From: Roseovarius bejariae
Lineage (GTDB): Bacteria; Pseudomonadota; Alphaproteobacteria; Rhodobacterales; Rhodobacteraceae
Assembly: GCF_009669325.1 (NCBI RefSeq)
Contig: NZ_SZWE01000001.1
Span: forward strand, 558,402 to 622,401
DNA: 64,000 nucleotides
Direction of reading: 5' to 3'
The first letter of the stretch is position 1. Every line of letters starts with the position of its first letter. A model generated the notes under the pieces. That model did not search any database, was not told where the DNA came from, and saw only the letters and a program-made list of their open reading frames with translations. Made by a program: the position numbers and the translations under genes. Below, in pieces: positions 43,979 through 52,610 of the stretch.

Positions 43979-44950
43979 TCAGGCGCGAGCGGTCGCCGCT
44001 GACGCTTCGGAAAACAGCGGCCCGGCTCCCACGCCCCTTGCGCGTCCTTCGTCATCACGCAGGAGGAACAGCGCGTCCAGTCCGCGTTGCCTTGCCAATG
44101 CCAGGCCCGCCTCAGAACCAAGAACCATAAGCGCCGTCGCCCAGGCATCGGCCTCGGTACAACTGCGGGCGACAACGGTCACCGACGCTGGCGACGCAAT
44201 CAGGGGGGCCCCGCGCCTTGGGTCCATCGTGTGCGACAAGCGTCGCCCCTGCACCTCGACCCAGTGGCGGTAATCACCGGAAGTCGCCACGCCAGCGTCC
44301 TCAAGCGTAAGGACCGAATGAGGTGTCCGGCACGACGCATCCGGCGCCTCGACCGCGATGGTCCATGCCTCTCCATCCGGTCGAAGGCCCATCGCGTGCA
44401 TCTCGCCGTCAATCCCGACAAGAGCATCGGTGATCCCGTGCTCCCTCAGTGTCTCGGCCAGACAATCGACTCCATACCCCTTGGCAATGCCGTTTAGATC
44501 AATGGTGATCGGTTCGATCTTGCGCACATGGGGGCCAGACATTTCCAACACCTCATGCGCCGGGTGCCGTGTGGCGGCCATTGCCGTACGGATATCCGCA
44601 GGCGCGGCAGCCTCTGGGCCGAACCCCCATGCCGTCACCGCATCGCCCATACCGATGTCAAAGGCGCCATCCGTGGCGCGCCCGATCTCAAGACCCAGAC
44701 GCAGGACATGCTCAAGGCGCTCAGGAATCGCCACCCAGTCGCCCACCGCTGCCGCATTGAGCCGCATCAGGTCGCTGTCAGGCTTCCATGTCGACATCTG
44801 TGCATCCACCTCATCGACAGCAGCCTGAAGCGCGACCTTAATTGCGTCCCTGTCAAATCCGGGGTCCCGGAAAAACAGCGCGGACCACCGCGTGCCCATG
44901 GTCGGGCCGTTCAGGGCAACGCGCATCATCTCAGTAGACATCTTCGACAT
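43979..44950 (-). CDS. apbE: FAD:protein FMN transferase ApbE
   Basis: ApbE transfers FMN from FAD to a Ser/Thr of target proteins. This 323-residue member has the expected motifs NGPTMGTRWS near the N-terminus, DLNGIAKGYGVD (FAD site) and SCTEADAWATAL (metal-binding Asp and Thr). It lacks the signal peptide or lipobox of periplasmic ApbE proteins, so it may act in the cytoplasm. The ATG at 44948-44950 has GGAGG 6 nt upstream and overlaps the reductase gene by 20 bases, so it is the last gene of the PepSY/DUF2271/reductase operon. Confidence 0.92.
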   Translation of the reverse strand: MSKMSTEMMRVALNGPTMGTRWSALFFRDPGFDRDAIKVALQAAVDEVDAQMSTWKPDSDLMRLNAAAVGDWVAIPERLEHVLRLGLEIGRATDGAFDIGMGDAVTAWGFGPEAAAPADIRTAMAATRHPAHEVLEMSGPHVRKIEPITIDLNGIAKGYGVDCLAETLREHGITDALVGIDGEMHAMGLRPDGEAWTIAVEAPDASCRTPHSVLTLEDAGVATSGDYRHWVEVQGRRLSHTMDPRRGAPLIASPASVTVVARSCTEADAWATALMVLGSEAGLALARQRGLDALFLLRDDEGRARGVGAGPLFSEASAATARA

Positions 44951-47138
44951 ACCGCCCCTCCGCTTTCAAAACAGCAGGCGAAAGCCCACAGGGCGCAAGA
45001 ATCTCGGCCATCGTATCGGCCACGCCGGTCGCCATGTCGCGACCGCCACAGACCATCACGCGCGCGCCACCACGGATAAGCCGGGAAACCTCGGCGGCAT
45101 CACGACGCAGCGCATCTTGCACATAATGGGGCCGCGCCCCACGTGAGACAGCCGTGACCAGCCGGGTCAGACGACCCTCCCCCTTCCAGACGGGCATCTC
45201 TTCTTCATAAAAGAAGTCGCTGTCATGATGGCGCATCCCGAAGAAAAGATGAACAGGCCGCTTTCGTGCATTTCCACGCACGAAGCCTGCAAGCGGCCCA
45301 ATCCCGGTTCCGGCCCCGATCAGGATCAGCGGCGCGCGCCCCCTGCCCGGACGGAAGCCGGGGTTGCGACGCAAAAAGGCCGTCACACTATCGCCGGGCT
45401 CCAGTGCCATAAGCTGCCCCGAGCAAAGCCCCCCCGAGTGCTTTTTCACAACGATTTCGATACTCCCATCTCGGTGTCCAGTGGCCAGCGAATAGAACCG
45501 TGGAACGGTACTGCCCTCAGGCAGAACGCCGATCAGGTCTCCGGCCTTGAACCGGGAAAACCCCGCACCGGTCAACCGCTGCCAAAAGGTGACGCGCGGC
45601 ATGGCGAAACGAAGGATCGCCGTCGGGGCCTGCACCTCAGCGCCATAGTCCCGGCGTGAGACAAGGGTCAACCTCTGCGTCACGGGCAAGACGGGCCTAT
45701 GCGACAGTTCAAGGTCAACCCCGAGGACCGCTCCAAGCGCCCGCCCCCACCGCGCGAAATCCTGCGGGGATTGACGATCAACCGTGTCGAGCGGCAGAAG
45801 TTCAGGCCAGCCCTTTGCCTTCGTCTCCGCGGCGACGGTCTCGGCAAAGGCACAGTAGGCCGGAAAGCTACGGTCGCCAAAGCCGAGCACGGCCAAAGGA
45901 ATATCGCGCGCCTGCTCAGTCGCGCGCAAACGGTCGAGGAACCCCTTGCCCGAGGCGGGCGCGTCCCCGTCACCATACGTCGCGGCAAGCACGATGATCC
46001 GGTCGGCATTTTGGTAGCGCGCCGGTGCAAAGCCCGACATCGGGCCGACATGCACACTCTGACCGGCCTCTGTCAGCGCGGCGTGAAGCGTCGCGGCAAA
46101 GCCCCATGTGCTCCCCCCCTCGCTGCCGACAAGAAGGATCGTCTGGGCGCGCGCAGCGGCCTGATTGCCACGAATACGCGGGCGCCCCCGCCGTCCGGCA
46201 AGCCAGATAAGAAAGCCGCTCACCCCCATGACCGGAACGCCCAGGGCCATGACCCCGAGCACAAGACCGAGTACCGCAGCACCCTGCCCCGTGTGCAACA
46301 TATAAATGGTTTCAGACAGACGCGCCCATCCGGTCAGGTCGGCCCATGCCAACAGCGCACCTGTCCCCTGATCGAGATACCCGGTTCCCCGGTCTGTCTT
46401 CAGCGTAAAGACATCCGTGGCATCCCCCGGATAGGGAAAGCTCAATTCGCGCAGGTCGGTGACGGGCGTCTGCCGCAAGGTGGTCATCTTATCGGGAACG
46501 GCTCCCGTTTGCCCACTAATGTTTGCCGGCAAGGCAGGCAAGGCACTGCCGTCGGGAAGCAGATCGAAGGTCGAAGCCGTCATCCAGAGGGCCGTGATCG
46601 ACGAAAGAACAAGGCCAATCACCGCGACCCGGGCGACCTCGACATGCAATCGGCCGGCAATCGGTCCACGCAGAGAGGTGAACCAGTGCCGCCAACCACC
46701 TACCCGCCGCGCGACAAGCGCCGCACCCGAAATCGACAGGGCCAGCATCGCCGCAGCCCCCGCCGCCATGGCGATACGCCCGCCATCTCCAAGGAACAAT
46801 GACCGATGCAACTTGGTCAGCCAGCGTTCGGTCTTGTTCGGGTCAGCCGAAGCCACACCTTGCCCGGTCGCGGGGTCGATCACGGCGGCCCCCGGTGTCC
46901 CCTGGTCGAACCAATAAGCCGTGATCCGGCCCGAGGGCGAGCGGCGGATCTGCTCTACCCCCGGATAAACAGCCTGAACGCGCCCCACCAGTGAGGCAAC
47001 CGTCAGACCGGCCTCCGCCTGCGGCGCGGCAATGCGCTCCGCCGCAGGAAAGACCGACAACGCCGCGCCGCTCAGGGCAAGCAGACTGACAAGCACGAGG
47101 GCCAAAAGACCCGGCCAACGATGGAAGGAACGGATCAT
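44931..47138 (-). CDS. PepSY-transmembrane / flavodoxin / NADPH-flavin reductase fusion
   Basis: This 735-residue inner-membrane protein joins three parts. Residues 1-330 are a PepSY-associated membrane domain with four helices and conserved histidines (SFHRWPGL, LHRSLFLG, GRLHVEVA, YMLHTGQG), likely heme ligands. Residues about 340-490 are a flavodoxin domain (VGSEGGSTWG, AATYGDGDAP, GFGDRSFPAY) for FMN. The rest is a cytochrome-P450-reductase-like FAD/NADPH module (RFYSLATG, GGLCSGQL, IGAGTGIGP, VMVCGGRDM). It should carry electrons from cytoplasmic NADPH across the membrane. The ATG at 47136-47138 has AGGAGG 7 nt upstream, 11 bases after the DUF2271 gene. Periplasmic acceptor unknown; iron or the DUF2271 protein are candidates. 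Confidence 0.88.
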   Translation of the reverse strand: MIRSFHRWPGLLALVLVSLLALSGAALSVFPAAERIAAPQAEAGLTVASLVGRVQAVYPGVEQIRRSPSGRITAYWFDQGTPGAAVIDPATGQGVASADPNKTERWLTKLHRSLFLGDGGRIAMAAGAAAMLALSISGAALVARRVGGWRHWFTSLRGPIAGRLHVEVARVAVIGLVLSSITALWMTASTFDLLPDGSALPALPANISGQTGAVPDKMTTLRQTPVTDLRELSFPYPGDATDVFTLKTDRGTGYLDQGTGALLAWADLTGWARLSETIYMLHTGQGAAVLGLVLGVMALGVPVMGVSGFLIWLAGRRGRPRIRGNQAAARAQTILLVGSEGGSTWGFAATLHAALTEAGQSVHVGPMSGFAPARYQNADRIIVLAATYGDGDAPASGKGFLDRLRATEQARDIPLAVLGFGDRSFPAYCAFAETVAAETKAKGWPELLPLDTVDRQSPQDFARWGRALGAVLGVDLELSHRPVLPVTQRLTLVSRRDYGAEVQAPTAILRFAMPRVTFWQRLTGAGFSRFKAGDLIGVLPEGSTVPRFYSLATGHRDGSIEIVVKKHSGGLCSGQLMALEPGDSVTAFLRRNPGFRPGRGRAPLILIGAGTGIGPLAGFVRGNARKRPVHLFFGMRHHDSDFFYEEEMPVWKGEGRLTRLVTAVSRGARPHYVQDALRRDAAEVSRLIRGGARVMVCGGRDMATGVADTMAEILAPCGLSPAVLKAEGRYVEDVY

Positions 47139-47149
47139 GGCCTGCCTCC

Positions 47150-47620
47150 TCACATGTCGTAGGCGAAGCTGGCGATGTAACGGCGCCCACGTGCTGGCAC
47201 ACCCGCGCCATCGGTCGTGAGCGGCACCGCCACCTCGTTCGGGCTATCGCGCATATCCTCGACCGCAGCATCGATATGGAGCGTATACCCCGCATCGAAC
47301 AGCGCGTCGGCCAGATCAAGCGTGATCTCAAGCGTCCGGCCCGCACCGACGCTGGCGCCGGTGATTCCATTGACCTGCCCCGTGTCTCCGCCCGTGGCGC
47401 GGCTCCAGTCGCTCAGATGCTCATAGTATTTCGACTTGCCACCAGCCATCCAAAGACTGCCGACATAGGCCCCCGAAGCATCGGTGACATACAGCGCCAG
47501 ATAGGCCCCGTCGCCACCATAATTGTTCAACTTGGTGGTCAATGTGACCGGCTTGGCCAATGCAAGACCGGGAAGCGTGAGCGCCGTGGTAAGCGCAAGC
47601 GATGCAAGTAGCGATTTCAT
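47150..47620 (-). CDS. Periplasmic DUF2271 protein with flavinylation-like TGAS motif
   Basis: This 156-residue protein has a Sec signal peptide (cleavage after ALA, residue 22) and a DUF2271 beta-sandwich: LTTKLNNYGGDGAYLALYV, then LWMAGGKSKYYEHLSDW. The segment NGITGASVGAG contains T87-G88-A89-S90, which resembles the ApbE target pattern [S/T]GA[S/T], although the usual Ser/Thr two residues later is Gly92. The ATG at 47618-47620 was chosen because AAGGA lies 8 nt upstream. It sits between a PepSY gene and the reductase fusion. It may be a covalent flavoprotein that receives electrons outside the membrane; this is inference. Confidence 0.8.
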   Translation of the reverse strand: MKSLLASLALTTALTLPGLALAKPVTLTTKLNNYGGDGAYLALYVTDASGAYVGSLWMAGGKSKYYEHLSDWSRATGGDTGQVNGITGASVGAGRTLEITLDLADALFDAGYTLHIDAAVEDMRDSPNEVAVPLTTDGAGVPARGRRYIASFAYDM

Positions 47621-47657
47621 CGGATTCATCCTTTTCGACAATTGACTGTGAAGCGGC

Positions 47658-48038
47658 TCAGTTCACTTGAACCTTGGGAGGCGCGCCATCGCCAAACAGA
47701 CCGTTCTGCGGCGGGGCAACGGTACCGGCGGGCGCCGGGTTGCGGGCACCGCCCTCGTCGTCGTCGTCATCCTCGTATTCCATCTCGACAACCCGGAGCG
47801 TCGCCGGATCGAGTTTCACCTCGACCCTCCGGTTGCTGCTGTCGCGGCCCTCGATCTCATAGCATCCATCGTCGACCTCGAAGTCACGCACGGTCCAGCC
47901 GTTCTTCTCGGCCACCTGCATCGCAGCCTCCCGCGATTGCCACGTATCGCGGGGGGCATAGCACTCATCATCATCCGCAAGCACGGCGCCCGCGGGCAGG
48001 GTTGCTAATAGGGAAAAGGCAATCAGGGTCTTTCTCAT
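47658..48038 (-). CDS. Small secreted PepSY protein with acidic tail (paralogue B)
   Basis: This 126-residue protein has a Sec signal peptide (cleavage after VLA about residue 21) and one PepSY domain. Features are DTWQSREAAMQVAEKNGWTV, DDGCYEIEGRD and a strand RRVEVKLDPATLRVVEMEYE. A five-Asp run and a Pro/Gly-rich tail follow. Two cysteines (about 27 and 59) could form a disulfide. It is about half identical by eye to the neighbour at 48218-48535. The ATG at 48036-48038 has AAAGGAG at 8 nt. It heads the operon with the DUF2271, reductase and apbE genes, with a shared regulatory element 75 bases upstream. Confidence 0.85.
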   Translation of the reverse strand: MRKTLIAFSLLATLPAGAVLADDDECYAPRDTWQSREAAMQVAEKNGWTVRDFEVDDGCYEIEGRDSSNRRVEVKLDPATLRVVEMEYEDDDDDEGGARNPAPAGTVAPPQNGLFGDGAPPKVQVN

Positions 48039-48112
48039 GGCAGGGTCTCCTTTCATCTGCTGGGTACAATCTGAAGACCCGACCTGAGGGCTTCCTGACG
48101 ATCCGACGAATT

Positions 48113-48132
48113 CCTCTTCAGCTTGCCGTCAG
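48113..48132 (-). promoter_or_regulatory. Candidate response-regulator site upstream of PepSY paralogue B
   Basis: CCTCTTCAGCTTGCCGTCAG contains the direct repeat TTCAG-N6-GTCAG with an 11-bp period, as expected for an OmpR/PhoB-type dimer. It matches the element at 48614-48633 in 18 of 20 positions and lies 75 bases from the start codon. Confidence 0.6.
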
Positions 48133-48141
48133 AAAGAAAAA

Positions 48142-48164
48142 GGCCCCGCCGGGGAAGCGGGGCC
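48142..48164 (-). terminator. Rho-independent terminator after PepSY paralogue A
   Basis: A GGCCCCGC / GCGGGGCC stem with a 7-base loop is followed on the minus strand by TTTTTCTTTCT. It separates the transcript of the gene at 48218-48535 from the next PepSY operon. Confidence 0.8.
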
Positions 48165-48217
48165 AGTTGCAGCCGAAGGGACGATCGGCCTTGCAGGGAG
48201 GTATCACTCATCCTCCC

Positions 48218-48535
48218 TTAGTCACGGTCGCGACGGTCATCATCATCGTCGTCATCATCATCATCGTCGTCCTCGTATTCGAACTCGATCATCTGAAGCG
48301 TGGAAGGATGAACAGTCACCTCGATTCTGCGCCCATTCGCATCGCGACCGTCGATTTCATAACACCCATCGTCGATCTTGATCCGCCGCACCGTCCATCC
48401 ATTCTCCGCGGCCAGCCGGGCAACGGCGTCTCGCGGCTGCCAGTCAGCCATCGGCACGAAACAATCATCGTCCGCCAATGCCCCACCGGCCGGAAAAACC
48501 GCAAGAATGCCGAGAATTGTCAATGTCGTCTTCAT
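48218..48535 (-). CDS. Small secreted PepSY protein with poly-aspartate tail (paralogue A)
   Basis: This 105-residue protein has a Sec signal peptide (cleavage after ALA about residue 21) and one PepSY domain. Its features ADWQPRDAVARLAAENGWTV and DDGCYEIDGRD run parallel to those of the gene at 47658-48038. The C-terminus is a run of 12 aspartates followed by RRDRD, encoded by GAT/GAC repeats that could change in length. Two cysteines are conserved with the paralogue. The acidic tail could bind divalent metal ions in the periplasm. It is divergent from the two-component system and has its own terminator. Confidence 0.85.
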   Translation of the reverse strand: MKTTLTILGILAVFPAGGALADDDCFVPMADWQPRDAVARLAAENGWTVRRIKIDDGCYEIDGRDANGRRIEVTVHPSTLQMIEFEYEDDDDDDDDDDDDRRDRD

Positions 48536-48613
48536 GGGCCAAACTCCTCATGGCTCGCCTCTTGATGCGTTGATGCACTGCCAAGCTTACAACAGCCTGA
48601 AGGGGCCTGCCCC

Positions 48614-48633
48614 CCCTCTTCAGCTTCACGTCA
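48614..48633. promoter_or_regulatory. Candidate response-regulator site between PepSY A and the two-component genes
   Basis: CCTCTTCAGCTTCACGTCAG contains the direct repeat TTCAG-N6-GTCAG with an 11-bp period. It lies 79 bases upstream of the PepSY gene and 47 bases upstream of the response-regulator gene. The near-identical copy at 48113-48132 makes a common regulator likely. Confidence 0.6.
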
Positions 48634-48679
48634 GCCAGACAGGTCAAGCAAGGGGCACCGAAACAGGACAGGAACGACC

Positions 48680-49339
48680 ATGCGCATTCTGCTGATTGAA
48701 GACGATACGACACTCGGGGCCGCGGTGCGTGATCAAATCGATGCCGATGGACACTCGGTGGACTGGGTGACGCGGCTGGATGCCTCCGCCGACGCGCTAA
48801 GCGCCACATCCTATGACCTGATCCTGCTCGACCTCATGCTACCGGATGGGCGTGGTGTCGTTTTCCTCAAGGACTTGCGCGCGCGGGGCGATGTGACGCC
48901 GGTCATCATCCTGACAGCCCTCGATCAGGTCTCGGACCGGATCGAGGGGTTGAACGCAGGGGCCGACGACTATCTGGTGAAACCCTACGATCTGGCCGAA
49001 CTGTCCGCCCGGATCGGATCGGTCGCCCGACGTTACAGCGGCAACCCGAACCCGATCGTCAGCCATGGATCACTGGACATCGACCTCGCCGCGCGCAGCA
49101 TTCACCGCGATGGCAAGCCCGTCCCGCTGACTGCCCGCGAGTGGGCACTGTTCGAAGCCTTCCTGTCTCGCCCCGGGCAACTCCTGTCCAAGCCCCAACT
49201 GGAAGAAAAGCTCTACGCCTTCGACTCGGACATCGAAAGCAACACAATCGAAGTCCACATCAGCCGCCTTCGCAAGAAGCTCGGAAGCGCCGTCATCGAA
49301 ACCGAGCGCGGCATGGGCTACAGGCTGGGCAGGCCATGA
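48680..49339 (+). CDS. OmpR-family response regulator
   Basis: This 219-residue regulator has a receiver domain with the acidic pair Glu7/Asp8-Asp9, phosphoacceptor Asp51 in LLDLMLPDG and a Lys in VKPYDL. Its winged-helix DNA-binding domain (about 125-217) includes SNTIEVHISRLRKKL. It is close in type to QseB/PmrA/BqsR regulators, which bind direct repeats with 11-bp spacing. It is coupled to the sensor kinase by an ATGA overlap and faces the PepSY gene. Its likely targets are the two PepSY promoters. Confidence 0.93.
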   Translation: MRILLIEDDTTLGAAVRDQIDADGHSVDWVTRLDASADALSATSYDLILLDLMLPDGRGVVFLKDLRARGDVTPVIILTALDQVSDRIEGLNAGADDYLVKPYDLAELSARIGSVARRYSGNPNPIVSHGSLDIDLAARSIHRDGKPVPLTAREWALFEAFLSRPGQLLSKPQLEEKLYAFDSDIESNTIEVHISRLRKKLGSAVIETERGMGYRLGRP

Positions 49340-50679
49340 AGTGGCCGGCAAGCCTTCAGGCACGGCTCGGGCTGTCGCTCGGCCTTGTGCTGGCGATTGT
49401 CTGGCTTCTGGCCGCAACGGTCACAGCCGTGATCGTCCGGGGCGAAATGGACGAGGTCTTCGACAGCGCCCTGCGCGAGACGGCCGAACGCATCCTGCCG
49501 CTGGCCGTGACCGACATCGTTGGACGGGAAGATCAGGGCGTGACTCAGCGGCTTGCATCGGTCCGGGAGCACGACGAATTTTTCACTTATCTGGTCCGCG
49601 ATGCTGAGGGCCGCATCCTTCTGCAATCCCACGCGGCAGACACCACAGTCTTCCCGCCCTATGAGGCGCCGGGGTTTCGACAGACCGCCACCCATCGCCT
49701 CTACAGTGACGCGGCGCTACAAGGGTCGATCCGTATCACCGTGGCCGAACCCCTGGCACATCGCGCGTCGGTCGCGCGGGAAATCCAGATGGGCCTTGGC
49801 TTGCCGTTGCTGATTGTGCTGCCCATCGCTCTTGTCGCCATCATCCTCGCCGTCCGCTTCAGCCTCGCTCCCCTGCGCCGTTTTCGGACGCGGCTTGAGG
49901 CCCGTGGCGCCCACGACCTGTCACAAGTGCCTGCCGACGACTTGCCAACGGAAATCGGCCCGCTGTCCGAAACCCTGAACAGCCTTCTGGCCCGGTTACG
50001 TGACGCATTCGAGGCCGAGCGCAGCTTTGCCGCAAGCGCCGCGCATGAACTGAGGACACCACTGGCAGGTGCCATCGCGCAGGCACAGCGGCTTCGCTCC
50101 GAGACACAAGATCCAACCACTGACGCACGCGCCGCTGAAATCGAGGCCACACTCAAGCGGCTCACACGGCTGTCGGAACGCCTGATGCAGCTTGCCCGAG
50201 CAGAAGGTGGACGCCTGCGGAAAGACGAATGCGCGGATTTACGCGCCATCGCGCAGGTCGTGGTGGATGAGATCAGACGCACCGACGCGCCGGACCGGAT
50301 CACGCTGACTCTGCCGGGCACGCCCGTCATGTCAGACATTGACCCCGATGCCTTCGCCATTCTCTGCCGAAACCTCGTTGAAAACGCCCTGCGGCACGGG
50401 ACAAAGACCGCACCAGTCGACGTAACCTTGACGGCGGATGGCCGGCTGATCGTGGCAAACGACGGCCCCGTTCTCCCGCGTGACACCCTTGACCGCCTGA
50501 CAGCGCGCTTCGAACGGGCGAATTCAAACACCGAAGGCAGCGGTCTCGGCCTCGCCATCGTTTCCGCCATCGCGGACCGCATCGGAAGCCCTCTTCGTCT
50601 GGAGTCACCGCGTCAGGGGGCATCATCCGGGTTTCAGGCTTCGATCAGGTTACCGGTCGGTCCCCCGGACGGGTCATGA
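49336..50679 (+). CDS. Sensor histidine kinase with RExxE motifs in the periplasmic domain
   Basis: This 447-residue kinase has two membrane helices (about 12-34 and 153-173) enclosing a periplasmic domain. A HAMP segment follows, then the H-box AASAAHELRTPL with His237 and an ATPase domain (NLVENALRHG, SGLGLAIV). The periplasmic part contains RETAE (47-51) and REHDE (77-81). The RExxE pattern is required for ferrous-iron sensing in the Pseudomonas kinase BqsS, so iron or another metal is a possible signal here. The ATG at 49336 overlaps the regulator gene by 4 bases. Confidence 0.92.
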   Translation: MKWPASLQARLGLSLGLVLAIVWLLAATVTAVIVRGEMDEVFDSALRETAERILPLAVTDIVGREDQGVTQRLASVREHDEFFTYLVRDAEGRILLQSHAADTTVFPPYEAPGFRQTATHRLYSDAALQGSIRITVAEPLAHRASVAREIQMGLGLPLLIVLPIALVAIILAVRFSLAPLRRFRTRLEARGAHDLSQVPADDLPTEIGPLSETLNSLLARLRDAFEAERSFAASAAHELRTPLAGAIAQAQRLRSETQDPTTDARAAEIEATLKRLTRLSERLMQLARAEGGRLRKDECADLRAIAQVVVDEIRRTDAPDRITLTLPGTPVMSDIDPDAFAILCRNLVENALRHGTKTAPVDVTLTADGRLIVANDGPVLPRDTLDRLTARFERANSNTEGSGLGLAIVSAIADRIGSPLRLESPRQGASSGFQASIRLPVGPPDGS

Positions 50680-50921: not shown

Positions 50922-52610
50922 TCAACTGTGCTCTTCCTCGGAGACCGCCGCCAAAGCCCGGTTGTAAGCCTTGAGCGCATCCACGTGGAAAAGCGCCCCC
51001 TTCAACTCCGGCGGCTCCCCCTCTCCACTCAGCACGACCACCGGAATGAAAGGCACAGCCGAGCGGTCGAACAGCGGCATCGCCGCCTCCAGTGTGCCGT
51101 TCATCCCGATATAAACGCCATCCTCGATCATCTCCCAACAGGCGTCCTCGCTGGCGCCCCGCGGGTGATCCGGCGGGCGCATCAATGGCTCCACCCGGAA
51201 CATCGCCAGCAAATACGCCTGCGGCCCGGCGGCCAGTTGCGTCCCCCGCCGATCCAATTGTGTGAGGAAAAACGAGCGTTTAACAAGCTTTGAGCCCAGC
51301 GCGGTGGACATCGACACCGCCACCATCACGGCCAGCCCCGTCTGCCAGTCGCCCGTAAGCTCGAACACGATCAGCGTCGTGGAAATCGGCGCGCCCAGCA
51401 CCGCCGCCGCCACGGCGCCCATGCCCGCCAGCGCGTAAAGCGTGGCCTTGCCGGAGACATCCGGGAAGACCCCCGTCGCGATCAGGCCGAAAGCCAACCC
51501 CGTCAGGGCCCCCACCATGAGCGAGGGCGAAAACACCCCGCCGCCCATGCGTCCGCCAATGGTTATCGAGACCGCAATGACCTTTAATATAGCGAAAACA
51601 ATGGCTTCGTGAAGGACAAGCTGTCCGGTCAAAGCCGCCGAGGTGGTCTCGTATCCGACCCCGATGATATGCGGAAATCCAATCGCCAAGCCCCCGACCA
51701 TGGCCCCGGCAATCATGGGCCGCAGCCAGCGGGGAACGCGCGTGCGCTTTTGCAGGTAACTGGCCATGTCCTCGGCAAAGAGAAGCGAATGCATCAGAAC
51801 CGTCGCCACCATGCCGCACACAAGGCCCAGCAACAGGAAGGCCGGAAGTTCGACATAGAATTCCAACGCTGTCGTGGTGGGCAGGGCAAACTCGGTAATA
51901 TCCCCGAATTCCAAGCGGTTGATGATCGTACCGGCCACGCTGGCAATGACGATGGGCGCAAAGGCGTGTACGGCAAAGTGACGCAAGACCACCTCAAGGG
52001 CGAACAGGGCCCCGGCAATCGGCGCATTGAAACTGGCCGATACGGCCGCCGCCACCGCGCAGCCCAGCAAATCACGCCCCGTGATCCCGTCGGCATTGAT
52101 CCGGTCACTCACCCAGCTTGCGATAACACCGGCCATATGCACCACCGGCCCCTCTCGCCCCGAGGAGCCCCCGGTGCCCAGCGTGATCATCGACGCCAGC
52201 GCCGAGGCCACCCCCTCGCGTCGCTCGACACGCCCATCGTTCAGGGCGGCCCCCTCAATCACGTCCGAAACCGACCGCACCCGCGCATCATCGGTGAAGT
52301 GGTGCAGGATCAACCCGACCACCAGCCCACCAAGGATCGGCACGATCAGCACCCAGTACCACGGCAGGGTTTCGGCCACGGAATGCACCCGGGCCATGTC
52401 CTCGGTCCCGTAGACGAGGCCCTGAAGTACGATGATCCCCTTACGAAACAACAGGGCGGCAAAACCTGCGGCGATCCCGATGATAAGGGCGATGAACCAG
52501 AACTGGATCTGGCTGGGCCCACGATGCAGCATGACAGACCAGCCATTGCGCAGCGCCGCAATAGCCGCAGCCGCCTTTTTCTTCAGGATGGAATTATCCC
52601 TGTCCGTCAT
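50922..52610 (-). CDS. ClC-family chloride channel
   Basis: This 562-residue protein of the ClC family has the anion-selectivity motif GSSGREGPVVHMA with the gating glutamate Glu153, and FNAPIAGALFALEVV. In E. coli ClC two consecutive glutamates follow this motif, and the second (Glu203) is the internal proton site; here the pair is Glu206-Val207. Valine at this place is typical of ClC channels rather than proton-coupled exchangers. A C-terminal cytoplasmic region of about 110 residues may be a degenerate CBS domain. It is divergent from the FAD oxidase gene. Confidence 0.9.
   Translation of the reverse strand: MTDRDNSILKKKAAAAIAALRNGWSVMLHRGPSQIQFWFIALIIGIAAGFAALLFRKGIIVLQGLVYGTEDMARVHSVAETLPWYWVLIVPILGGLVVGLILHHFTDDARVRSVSDVIEGAALNDGRVERREGVASALASMITLGTGGSSGREGPVVHMAGVIASWVSDRINADGITGRDLLGCAVAAAVSASFNAPIAGALFALEVVLRHFAVHAFAPIVIASVAGTIINRLEFGDITEFALPTTTALEFYVELPAFLLLGLVCGMVATVLMHSLLFAEDMASYLQKRTRVPRWLRPMIAGAMVGGLAIGFPHIIGVGYETTSAALTGQLVLHEAIVFAILKVIAVSITIGGRMGGGVFSPSLMVGALTGLAFGLIATGVFPDVSGKATLYALAGMGAVAAAVLGAPISTTLIVFELTGDWQTGLAVMVAVSMSTALGSKLVKRSFFLTQLDRRGTQLAAGPQAYLLAMFRVEPLMRPPDHPRGASEDACWEMIEDGVYIGMNGTLEAAMPLFDRSAVPFIPVVVLSGEGEPPELKGALFHVDALKAYNRALAAVSEEEHS

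Follow-up and report, generated by a model that had tools for sequence, protein, structure and literature searches.

A conserved PepSY_TM, DUF2271 and ApbE locus with a divergent two-component system in Roseovarius bejariae: a candidate self-regulated transmembrane metal reductase

A 64-kb stretch of the Roseovarius bejariae genome (the window) carries, at positions 43979-50679, seven genes encoding an ApbE-type flavin transferase, a membrane reductase, a DUF2271 protein, two PepSY_2 proteins, a response regulator and a sensor histidine kinase. We propose that this locus encodes a transmembrane metal reductase under its own control, with iron as the most likely substrate, and put the probability of this reading at roughly 0.55. 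The whole account rests on sequence comparison: an electron-transfer function is likely, metal reduction is probable, and iron would be the favoured substrate. The proposal builds on gene content, synteny, invariant residues and a conserved repeat, which are established here, and on DUF2271 flavinylation, the haems of FoxB and the binding of the PepSY protein DbfQ to the kinase DbfS, which the literature has established for relatives. The locus joins flavin-based transmembrane electron transfer and PepSY-partnered sensing, both described only recently, in one unit that is mobile, regulates itself and has a candidate operator, which makes it possible to test both modules together.

Gene content and conserved synteny

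A profile search confirmed all seven genes at the positions, and with the domains, listed in a preliminary description of this DNA. Read from the divergent promoter, the minus strand carries the genes of PepSY_2 protein A, PepSY_2 protein B, DUF2271, the reductase and ApbE, in this order.

The combination had been called unusual, a view that its distribution contradicts: DUF2271 was found in 86 of the 394 family genomes sampled, with shared synteny, and the idea of a strain-specific combination was rejected on this ground. The family set consisted of 92 stretches outside the window genome. Ninety of them had a DUF2271 match of at least 60 bits (L053 and L130, with profile scores below 60 bits, were dropped), and 67 had full flanks. 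The reductase gene was present in all 67, apbE in 66, and the regulator and kinase genes in 59 each; at least one soluble PepSY gene was found in 54 and the tail protein described below in 49. The four genes for reductase, ApbE, regulator and kinase occurred together in 58 of the 67 loci, synteny far above chance, and their co-occurrence across Rhodobacteraceae, which the preliminary description had left to be checked, is thus borne out. In a phylum sample of 60 loci, for which the profiles missed some DUF2271 frames, 10 had the DUF2271 subtype of the window; regulator and kinase genes accompanied 7 of these 10, and reductase and ApbE genes were present as well in 5. Most of the other 50 had no such regulator and kinase genes beside DUF2271, L145 being a possible exception. 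From the family synteny and the contrast with the phylum sample we regard the locus type as a distinct, widely shared subtype.

The preliminary description knew of no function for such a cluster. The cluster type has in fact been described, as 'PepSY-like' flavinylation systems, in 3,040 genomes, and iron reduction was proposed for it (Meheust et al. 2021, eLife, PMC8238504). These systems share with the window an ApbE, a DUF2271 protein with the [ST]GA[ST] motif and a PepSY_TM protein, and the window has PepSY_TM (PF03929/PF16357) inside a flavinylation-associated cluster; the same paper counts 1,077 PepSY_TM genes with an NAD-binding domain. Many clusters of our phylum sample differ from the window in gene order (DUF2271-ApbE-reductase), in a low DUF2271 subtype score and in having no divergent two-component system. 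The available text of Meheust et al. mentions neither two-component control nor an operator, a tail protein or a signal-less ApbE, all features of the window. The core of ApbE, DUF2271 and PepSY_TM reductase is thus known and the module of PepSY protein and two-component system is published, while their conserved union is partly new; the regulation through an operator repeat, the signal-less ApbE and the conserved tail peptide look new. These three features, carriage on plasmids and the metal-related partner genes of some relatives also go beyond the preliminary description.

The membrane reductase and the proposed electron path

The reductase gene (44931-47138, minus strand) encodes 735 residues; its open frame reaches 47153, and the likely start, the ATG at 47138, gives the same length as in P0001. 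PepSY_TM (PF03929), Flavodoxin_1 and NAD_binding_1 lie on one chain, FAD_binding_6 matching only below its cut-off. The part predicted to bind reduced nicotinamide adenine dinucleotide phosphate (NADPH) and flavin adenine dinucleotide (FAD) resembles CysJ and cytochrome P450 reductase in the order of the flavodoxin and FAD/NADPH modules, although the CysJ model score was 126 against a cut-off of 668 bits; the PepSY_TM fusion sets the window protein apart from both enzymes.

Four histidines near the predicted ends of membrane helices, H11, H116, H170 and H287 (numbering of a 740-residue form), are invariant in 85 of 85 sequences and likewise in 130 of 130 sequences 41-84% identical to that of the window. 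A profile of the membrane part built from 29 sequences matched FoxB (PDB 7ABW) with an E-value of 3.3e-10, the next-best solved structure reaching 0.21. FoxB, a di-haem ferric-siderophore reductase, is itself a PepSY_TM protein by profile, and H11, H116 and H287, three of the four invariant histidines, align to histidines of FoxB. In contrast to the window reductase, the 382-residue chain of FoxB has no flavodoxin, FAD or NADPH modules, and the available FoxB literature makes no mention of a flavinylated partner. The data support two bis-histidine haems in the reductase, with predicted pairing and sidedness.

In the proposed path, electrons from NADPH would enter FAD and then the flavin mononucleotide (FMN) of the flavodoxin-like domain, and would cross the membrane via two bis-histidine b-haems, formed by H11 and H170 on the inner side and H116 and H287 on the outer side. 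The haems would reduce FMN bound covalently at the TGAS site of the exported DUF2271 protein, which would pass the electrons on to a metal ion in the periplasm; the acidic PepSY and tail proteins may hold this ion. We infer this order of carriers. The path from NADPH through FAD, FMN and membrane haem to a periplasmic flavoprotein, as put forward in the preliminary description, appears well supported by the domains, the invariant histidines, the flavinylation motif and the homology to FoxB.

The DUF2271 protein and the signal-less ApbE

The DUF2271 gene (47150-47641, minus strand; PF10029, E 3.7e-34; likely start at the ATG at 47629 or 47620) encodes a predicted flavin carrier, exported by the general secretory (Sec) route, with a TGAS site. 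The window protein has the motif [ST]GA[ST], as do 89 of the 90 family homologues from elsewhere; the sole exception, that of locus L085, has TGGS in its place. Flavinylation of a DUF2271 protein was shown for Amantichitinum ursilacus by co-expression of signal-truncated proteins in Escherichia coli (Meheust et al. 2021, PMC8238504); because truncated proteins were used, the assay is silent on the compartment in which the flavin is attached.

The apbE gene (43979-44950, minus strand) encodes an FAD:protein FMN transferase of 323 residues (PF02424, E 6.5e-79), and nearly all of its 13 matches to solved structures are labelled FMN transferase or ApbE. In the family set plus the window, a hydrophobic N-terminal stretch was found in 88 of 91 DUF2271 proteins vs 0 of 87 ApbEs at a common cut-off of 1.5. 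Export was called by this hydropathy rule, not by SignalP; at a cut-off of 1.9 the DUF2271 count drops to 29 of 91, and the first count had used 1.9 for ApbE and 1.5 for DUF2271. PepSY-like flavinylation systems have an export signal in one or more of the ApbE, FMN-binding, DUF3570 and DUF2271 genes; by the hydropathy rule DUF2271 has one here. No N-terminal lipoprotein, Sec or twin-arginine (Tat) signal was found in the cluster ApbEs (0/87 in the family set, 0/12 in a control set). A signal peptide hidden 5' of the ApbE frame was rejected: 69 of the 87 had fewer than 25 open residues before the first ApbE motif, and the remaining 18, with a longer upstream frame, had no hydrophobic stretch either. 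The common start MSKMST was set aside as a functional motif, its conservation following from the overlap of its codons with the conserved VEDVY end of the reductase.

The control set, from the same family, comprised 30 listed ApbE loci and three of the window's genome, the fragment L328 being dropped; L003 and L004 gave one frame, and the second ApbE of the window genome there was counted from a separate scan. When ApbEs with a profile score above 350 bits were grouped as module proteins, all 12 of these were without an export signal and all 20 other distinct ApbEs had one (19 with a Tat- or lipobox-like motif, L319 with a hydrophobic stretch alone). When the proteins were instead grouped by proximity to FNR, flavodoxin or DUF2271, a hydrophobic stretch was absent from 15 and present in 2 near such genes, and absent from 3 and present in 13 elsewhere. 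Five signal-bearing ApbEs (L319, L320, L322, L324, L330) lay near an FNR-like frame, with no DUF2271 match in the DNA stretches examined. Among the 28 ApbEs that stand unfused next to DUF2271 in the phylum sample, 27 were without a signal and one, that of L151, has a lipobox; four ApbE-DUF2271 fusions (L174, L176, L178, L179) bear a signal. L143 and L175, called fusions by the script, consist of two frames each; the ApbE of L143 has no signal and that of L175 is borderline. The phylum test covered 48 of the 60 loci, 14 of which gave no ApbE match; among those with ApbE, the script chose the DUF2271 frame wrongly in up to 11, and gene starts are less certain in this sample.

According to a review (PMC12052999), most ApbEs are secreted, and cytosolic ones are named as well; the bacterial one, of Klebsiella, serves a soluble fumarate reductase, and a Salmonella-type ApbE worked only when periplasmic. 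In the available texts of the literature searched we came across no mention of an exported substrate being paired with an ApbE that has no signal. Such a pairing challenges the view that exported flavoproteins obtain their flavin outside the cytosol.

That the cluster ApbE loads DUF2271 is presumed. It is possible, if somewhat unlikely, that an exported ApbE encoded elsewhere loads DUF2271 in the periplasm and that the signal-less enzyme modifies a cytosolic protein. The window genome has three further ApbEs, all with Tat-type signals, and the Klebsiella and Salmonella precedents point the same way. Against this, 20 bases at the 3' end of the window's reductase gene are shared with apbE, which belongs to the operon of DUF2271 in 66 of 67 loci, and the pairing of signal-less ApbE with DUF2271 recurs in other clusters of the phylum. 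The reductase offers no alternative target: its cytosolic part has no conserved [ST]GA[ST], and flavinylation of the reductase itself was rejected for the same reason.

Proposed two-component control and the predicted operator repeat

The regulator gene (48680-49339, plus strand) encodes an OmpR/PmrA-family response regulator whose best solved match is PmrA/BasR. The kinase gene, at 49336-50679 on the same strand, likely starts at 49336, overlapping the regulator stop, and encodes a QseC-like sensor histidine kinase (2CSK_N, HAMP, HisKA, HATPase) with QseC as its best solved match. Both failed the NCBIfam equivalog cut-offs (PmrA 204 vs 330 bits, QseC 192 vs 475 bits).

A direct repeat, CTGA[AC]-N6-CTGA[AC], was present on either strand in 80 of 81 divergent regions upstream of the regulator gene (the window, 73 from the family and 7 from the phylum sample; the miss is L124), and 59 of these had it on both strands. 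With a spacing of 3-5 or 7-12 it was seen in no more than 5 of 81, and mononucleotide shuffles gave a mean of 0.08 matches; since the motif was derived from these same 81 regions, the spacing control carries more weight than the shuffles. Of the 59 pairs of opposed exact sites, 56 had a distance of 33 or 34 bp; a same-strand copy was located close to the tail gene's 5' end in 57 of 69. In the window, exact copies are found on the minus strand at 48117-48132 (CTGACGGCAAGCTGAA), facing the operon of tail protein, DUF2271, reductase and apbE, and at 48619-48634 (CTGACGTGAAGCTGAA), facing the gene of protein A; a degenerate copy on the plus strand, 48586-48601 (CTTACAACAGCCTGAA), faces the regulator gene and is separated from the next site by 33 bp. 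We take the 11-bp repeat period to be that of PmrA-type direct repeats. Loci L040, L054 and L070 have copies of the repeat though no two-component system is adjacent.

In our model the kinase, whose likely periplasmic partner is a soluble PepSY protein, would activate the regulator, which is predicted to bind the CTGA[AC] repeats (11-bp period) before its own operon and before the reductase operon. The window genome has 10 exact matches to CTGAC-N6-CTGAA, 2 of them in the locus, where base counts predict about 7 by chance and the backwards control gave 0. By eye and open frames, five of the other eight seem to lie in genes, two look intergenic (L279, L281) and one is ambiguous (L278); there may be further regulon members beyond the locus.

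The layout, a small secreted PepSY protein beside a kinase and a regulator, is by analogy that of DbfQRS of Vibrio cholerae and BqsPQRS of Pseudomonas aeruginosa (PMC12714742, PMC12666569). In DbfQRS the PepSY protein binds the sensor domain of the kinase and favours its phosphatase activity (PMC12714742). The P. aeruginosa module has, like the window, two PepSY proteins, encoded beside bqsS (PMC12714742), and BqsS binds Fe(II) via Glu48 of an ExxE motif (PMC12666569). The window kinase reads RETAER (E49xxE52), an ExxE in the first periplasmic helix region, a place like that in BqsS, though just 4 of 21 aligned kinases have one; the metal signal that the preliminary description ascribes to the kinase is a possibility. 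Unlike in both modules, the window genes run divergently and are linked to a reductase operon, and the pairing of PepSY protein and kinase is a prediction.

The PepSY_2 proteins and the conserved tail peptide

The preliminary description spoke of two secreted PepSY paralogues with acidic tails. There are indeed two, both PepSY_2 (PF13670), but only protein A (48218-48535, minus strand, divergent from the regulator gene; E 2.9e-26) ends acidic, with a C-terminal Asp run. In protein B (47658-48038, minus strand, likely start 48038; E 2.2e-27) an acidic stretch is followed by a conserved, less acidic C-terminal peptide (NPAPAGTVAPPQNGLFGDGAPPKVQVN). Protein A is a candidate DbfQ-like kinase partner. 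LanP, which binds metal through Glu/Asp according to a review, and UipA, known here from a mention in a reference list, are metal-binding secreted PepSY proteins; the two window proteins, predicted to be secreted as well, would be candidates for metal binding. Credible PDB sequence matches were found neither for protein B nor for DUF2271.

A tail protein ending like NPAPAGTVAPPQNGLFGNGAPPQVQVN is encoded upstream of DUF2271 in 65 of 91 family loci including the window (64 by script plus L082, mis-binned by the overlap rule); this count and those of accessory genes used regular expressions or phmmer cut-offs and include weak or partial matches. The bodies of the tail proteins differ, being PepSY_2 in the window and other loci or an Asp-rich segment, for which the one protein searched gave no Pfam match. 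Since one tail sits on two unlike bodies, we suggest that it is a docking or targeting peptide, and it provides a handle for finding a missing periplasmic partner. The codon pattern of the tail centre occurs once in the window genome, in the gene of protein B, and a search of 60 genomes found it in 13, the one of the window among them, all Roseovarius (backwards control, once); the sites in the other 12 are known by the match alone.

Protein A may have its own transcript, apart from the operon of protein B, DUF2271, reductase and ApbE, because a terminator-like hairpin with a T run (48142-48164, minus strand) lies 3' of its gene and an operator copy lies before that of protein B. With 2 overlapping sites vs a shuffle mean of 1.1, the hairpin is weak taken alone. 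A third PepSY_2 gene of the window genome (L132, contig C2) has no such regulator, kinase or reductase gene, by profile, in the 12-kb stretch examined.

Taken together, the signal-less ApbE might flavinylate DUF2271 in the cytosol from cytosolic FAD, with Sec exporting the holo-protein or an unfolded FMN-bearing chain, and the tail peptide might dock the acidic or PepSY protein on DUF2271 or on the reductase as a metal-loaded acceptor, all in one plasmid-mobile two-component regulon. We offer this combination tentatively, at less than even odds, flavinylation inside the cell and docking by the tail being its bold parts.

Evidence for the metal substrate

Metal-related genes accompany the locus in part of the relatives. 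Between DUF2271 and the regulator gene, Ferric_reduct (PF01794) was found in 14 of 91 loci and cytochrome b561 (PF01292) in 32 (some weak or partial); 45 of 91, the window included, had neither. VIT1, presumably of the iron/manganese family, lay behind ApbE or beside the kinase gene in 21 of 63 loci. A full P1B-ATPase gene followed apbE in 14 of 63, with weak or partial matches in 9 more, and 34 had neither VIT1 nor a P1B-ATPase, full or partial. Short pieces of the ATPase gene stand behind apbE in L044, L073, L074 and L085, as if it had been repeatedly lost. All 14 full ATPases have TPC in the membrane motif, which we take to be a mark of class P1B-5. The one characterised P1B-5 pump moves Ni and Fe (PMC4932525), VIT1, found in 167 clusters, is termed a ferrous iron transporter by Meheust et al. 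(PMC8238504), and Alteromonas DUF2271/DUF4198 genes were induced under iron limitation (PMC7190382). The metal link made in the preliminary description gains support from the VIT1, P1B-ATPase and ferric-reductase partners.

The same electron path might instead serve copper or another toxic metal, the locus being a plasmid-borne metal-resistance or cofactor-supply cassette, which we consider improbable. The ATPase beside ApbE, which is plasmid-borne, passes the NCBIfam cut-off of a Cd family (466.6 vs 313.5 bits), two listed plasmid carriers come from oil-contaminated sites, and the NCBIfam matches of the regulator include a heavy-metal subfamily, below its cut-off (159 vs 279 bits). CrpH of Bordetella pertussis, a PepSY_TM protein with conserved haem-type histidines like the window reductase, is linked to copper and supports haem-copper oxidases (PMC13038864); DUF2271 and flavodoxin have 0 occurrences in the text of that paper. 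On the other side stand the neighbouring VIT1, the TPC motif in 14 of 14 ATPases and the Ferric_reduct partner in 14 of 91 loci. Still less probable is an envelope-stress repair or signalling reductase, in which a QseC/PmrB/DbfS-like kinase would sense damage and DUF2271 would feed a periplasmic repair enzyme or quinone: the best, sub-cut-off scores of kinase and regulator are to QseC and PmrA models and DbfQRS answers membrane integrity, not added iron (PMC12714742), but the window operon has no repair enzyme gene, and those accessory genes of relatives that could be identified encode metal transporters, reductases or cytochromes.

Several observations weigh against an iron reductase as proposed here. 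The window copy has no adjacent VIT1, P1B-ATPase or extra reductase gene (VIT1 lies at a separate place in the genome, outside the locus), and VIT1 is missing from these positions in 42 of the 63 family loci. The signal-less ApbE breaks the usual picture of periplasmic flavinylation. H170 lies outside the FoxB alignment, the LHR of the third helix of FoxB was matched to helix one of the profile (3.3 bits), and, taken singly, the two remaining aligned stretches score weakly (i-E 0.012 and 0.018). Both Glu residues of ExxE are present in just 4 of 21 aligned kinases, an alignment that does not include BqsS. In the literature, the copper link of CrpH, the lack of a response of the homologous V. 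cholerae DbfRS to iron (PMC12714742) and the altered state of a Caulobacter DUF2271 gene in a zur (zinc) mutant (PMC4176598) point in the same direction.

Plasmid carriage and variant loci

Fifty-two plasmid records carry the locus at no less than 80% coverage and 60-80% identity, and 62 of 94 matching plasmid records are predicted to be conjugative. Three plasmid copies were opened: two are conjugative and have the ATPase and VIT1 genes, and one, non-mobilizable, has the ATPase gene. No TonB receptor is annotated in these three stretches, the only ones in which it was looked for. On two Cereibacter sphaeroides plasmids (H38, H39) the regulator gene, the kinase gene and one PepSY gene matched and the reductase gene and apbE did not; the regulatory and reductase halves of the locus may therefore be separable. 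Beside the module on a Defluviimonas plasmid are a gene for a polyhaem cytochrome c and another two-component pair (L298:22977-26279).

A second cluster type in the family (L102, L114, L120, L121) consists of a more distant DUF2271 and reductase with ApbE about 4.4 kb away. It has no such two-component system nearby, and its ApbE again seems to be signal-less. Locus L223, in a record titled Enemella evansiae, which we take to be an actinobacterium, has 94% DUF2271 identity and perhaps comes from a mislabelled or contaminated assembly.

In the window, no RNA element reached its gathering score, and a search for sigma-70-type promoters in 47600-48750 gave none. A CLC-type chloride channel gene (50922-52610) adjoins the kinase gene in convergent orientation.

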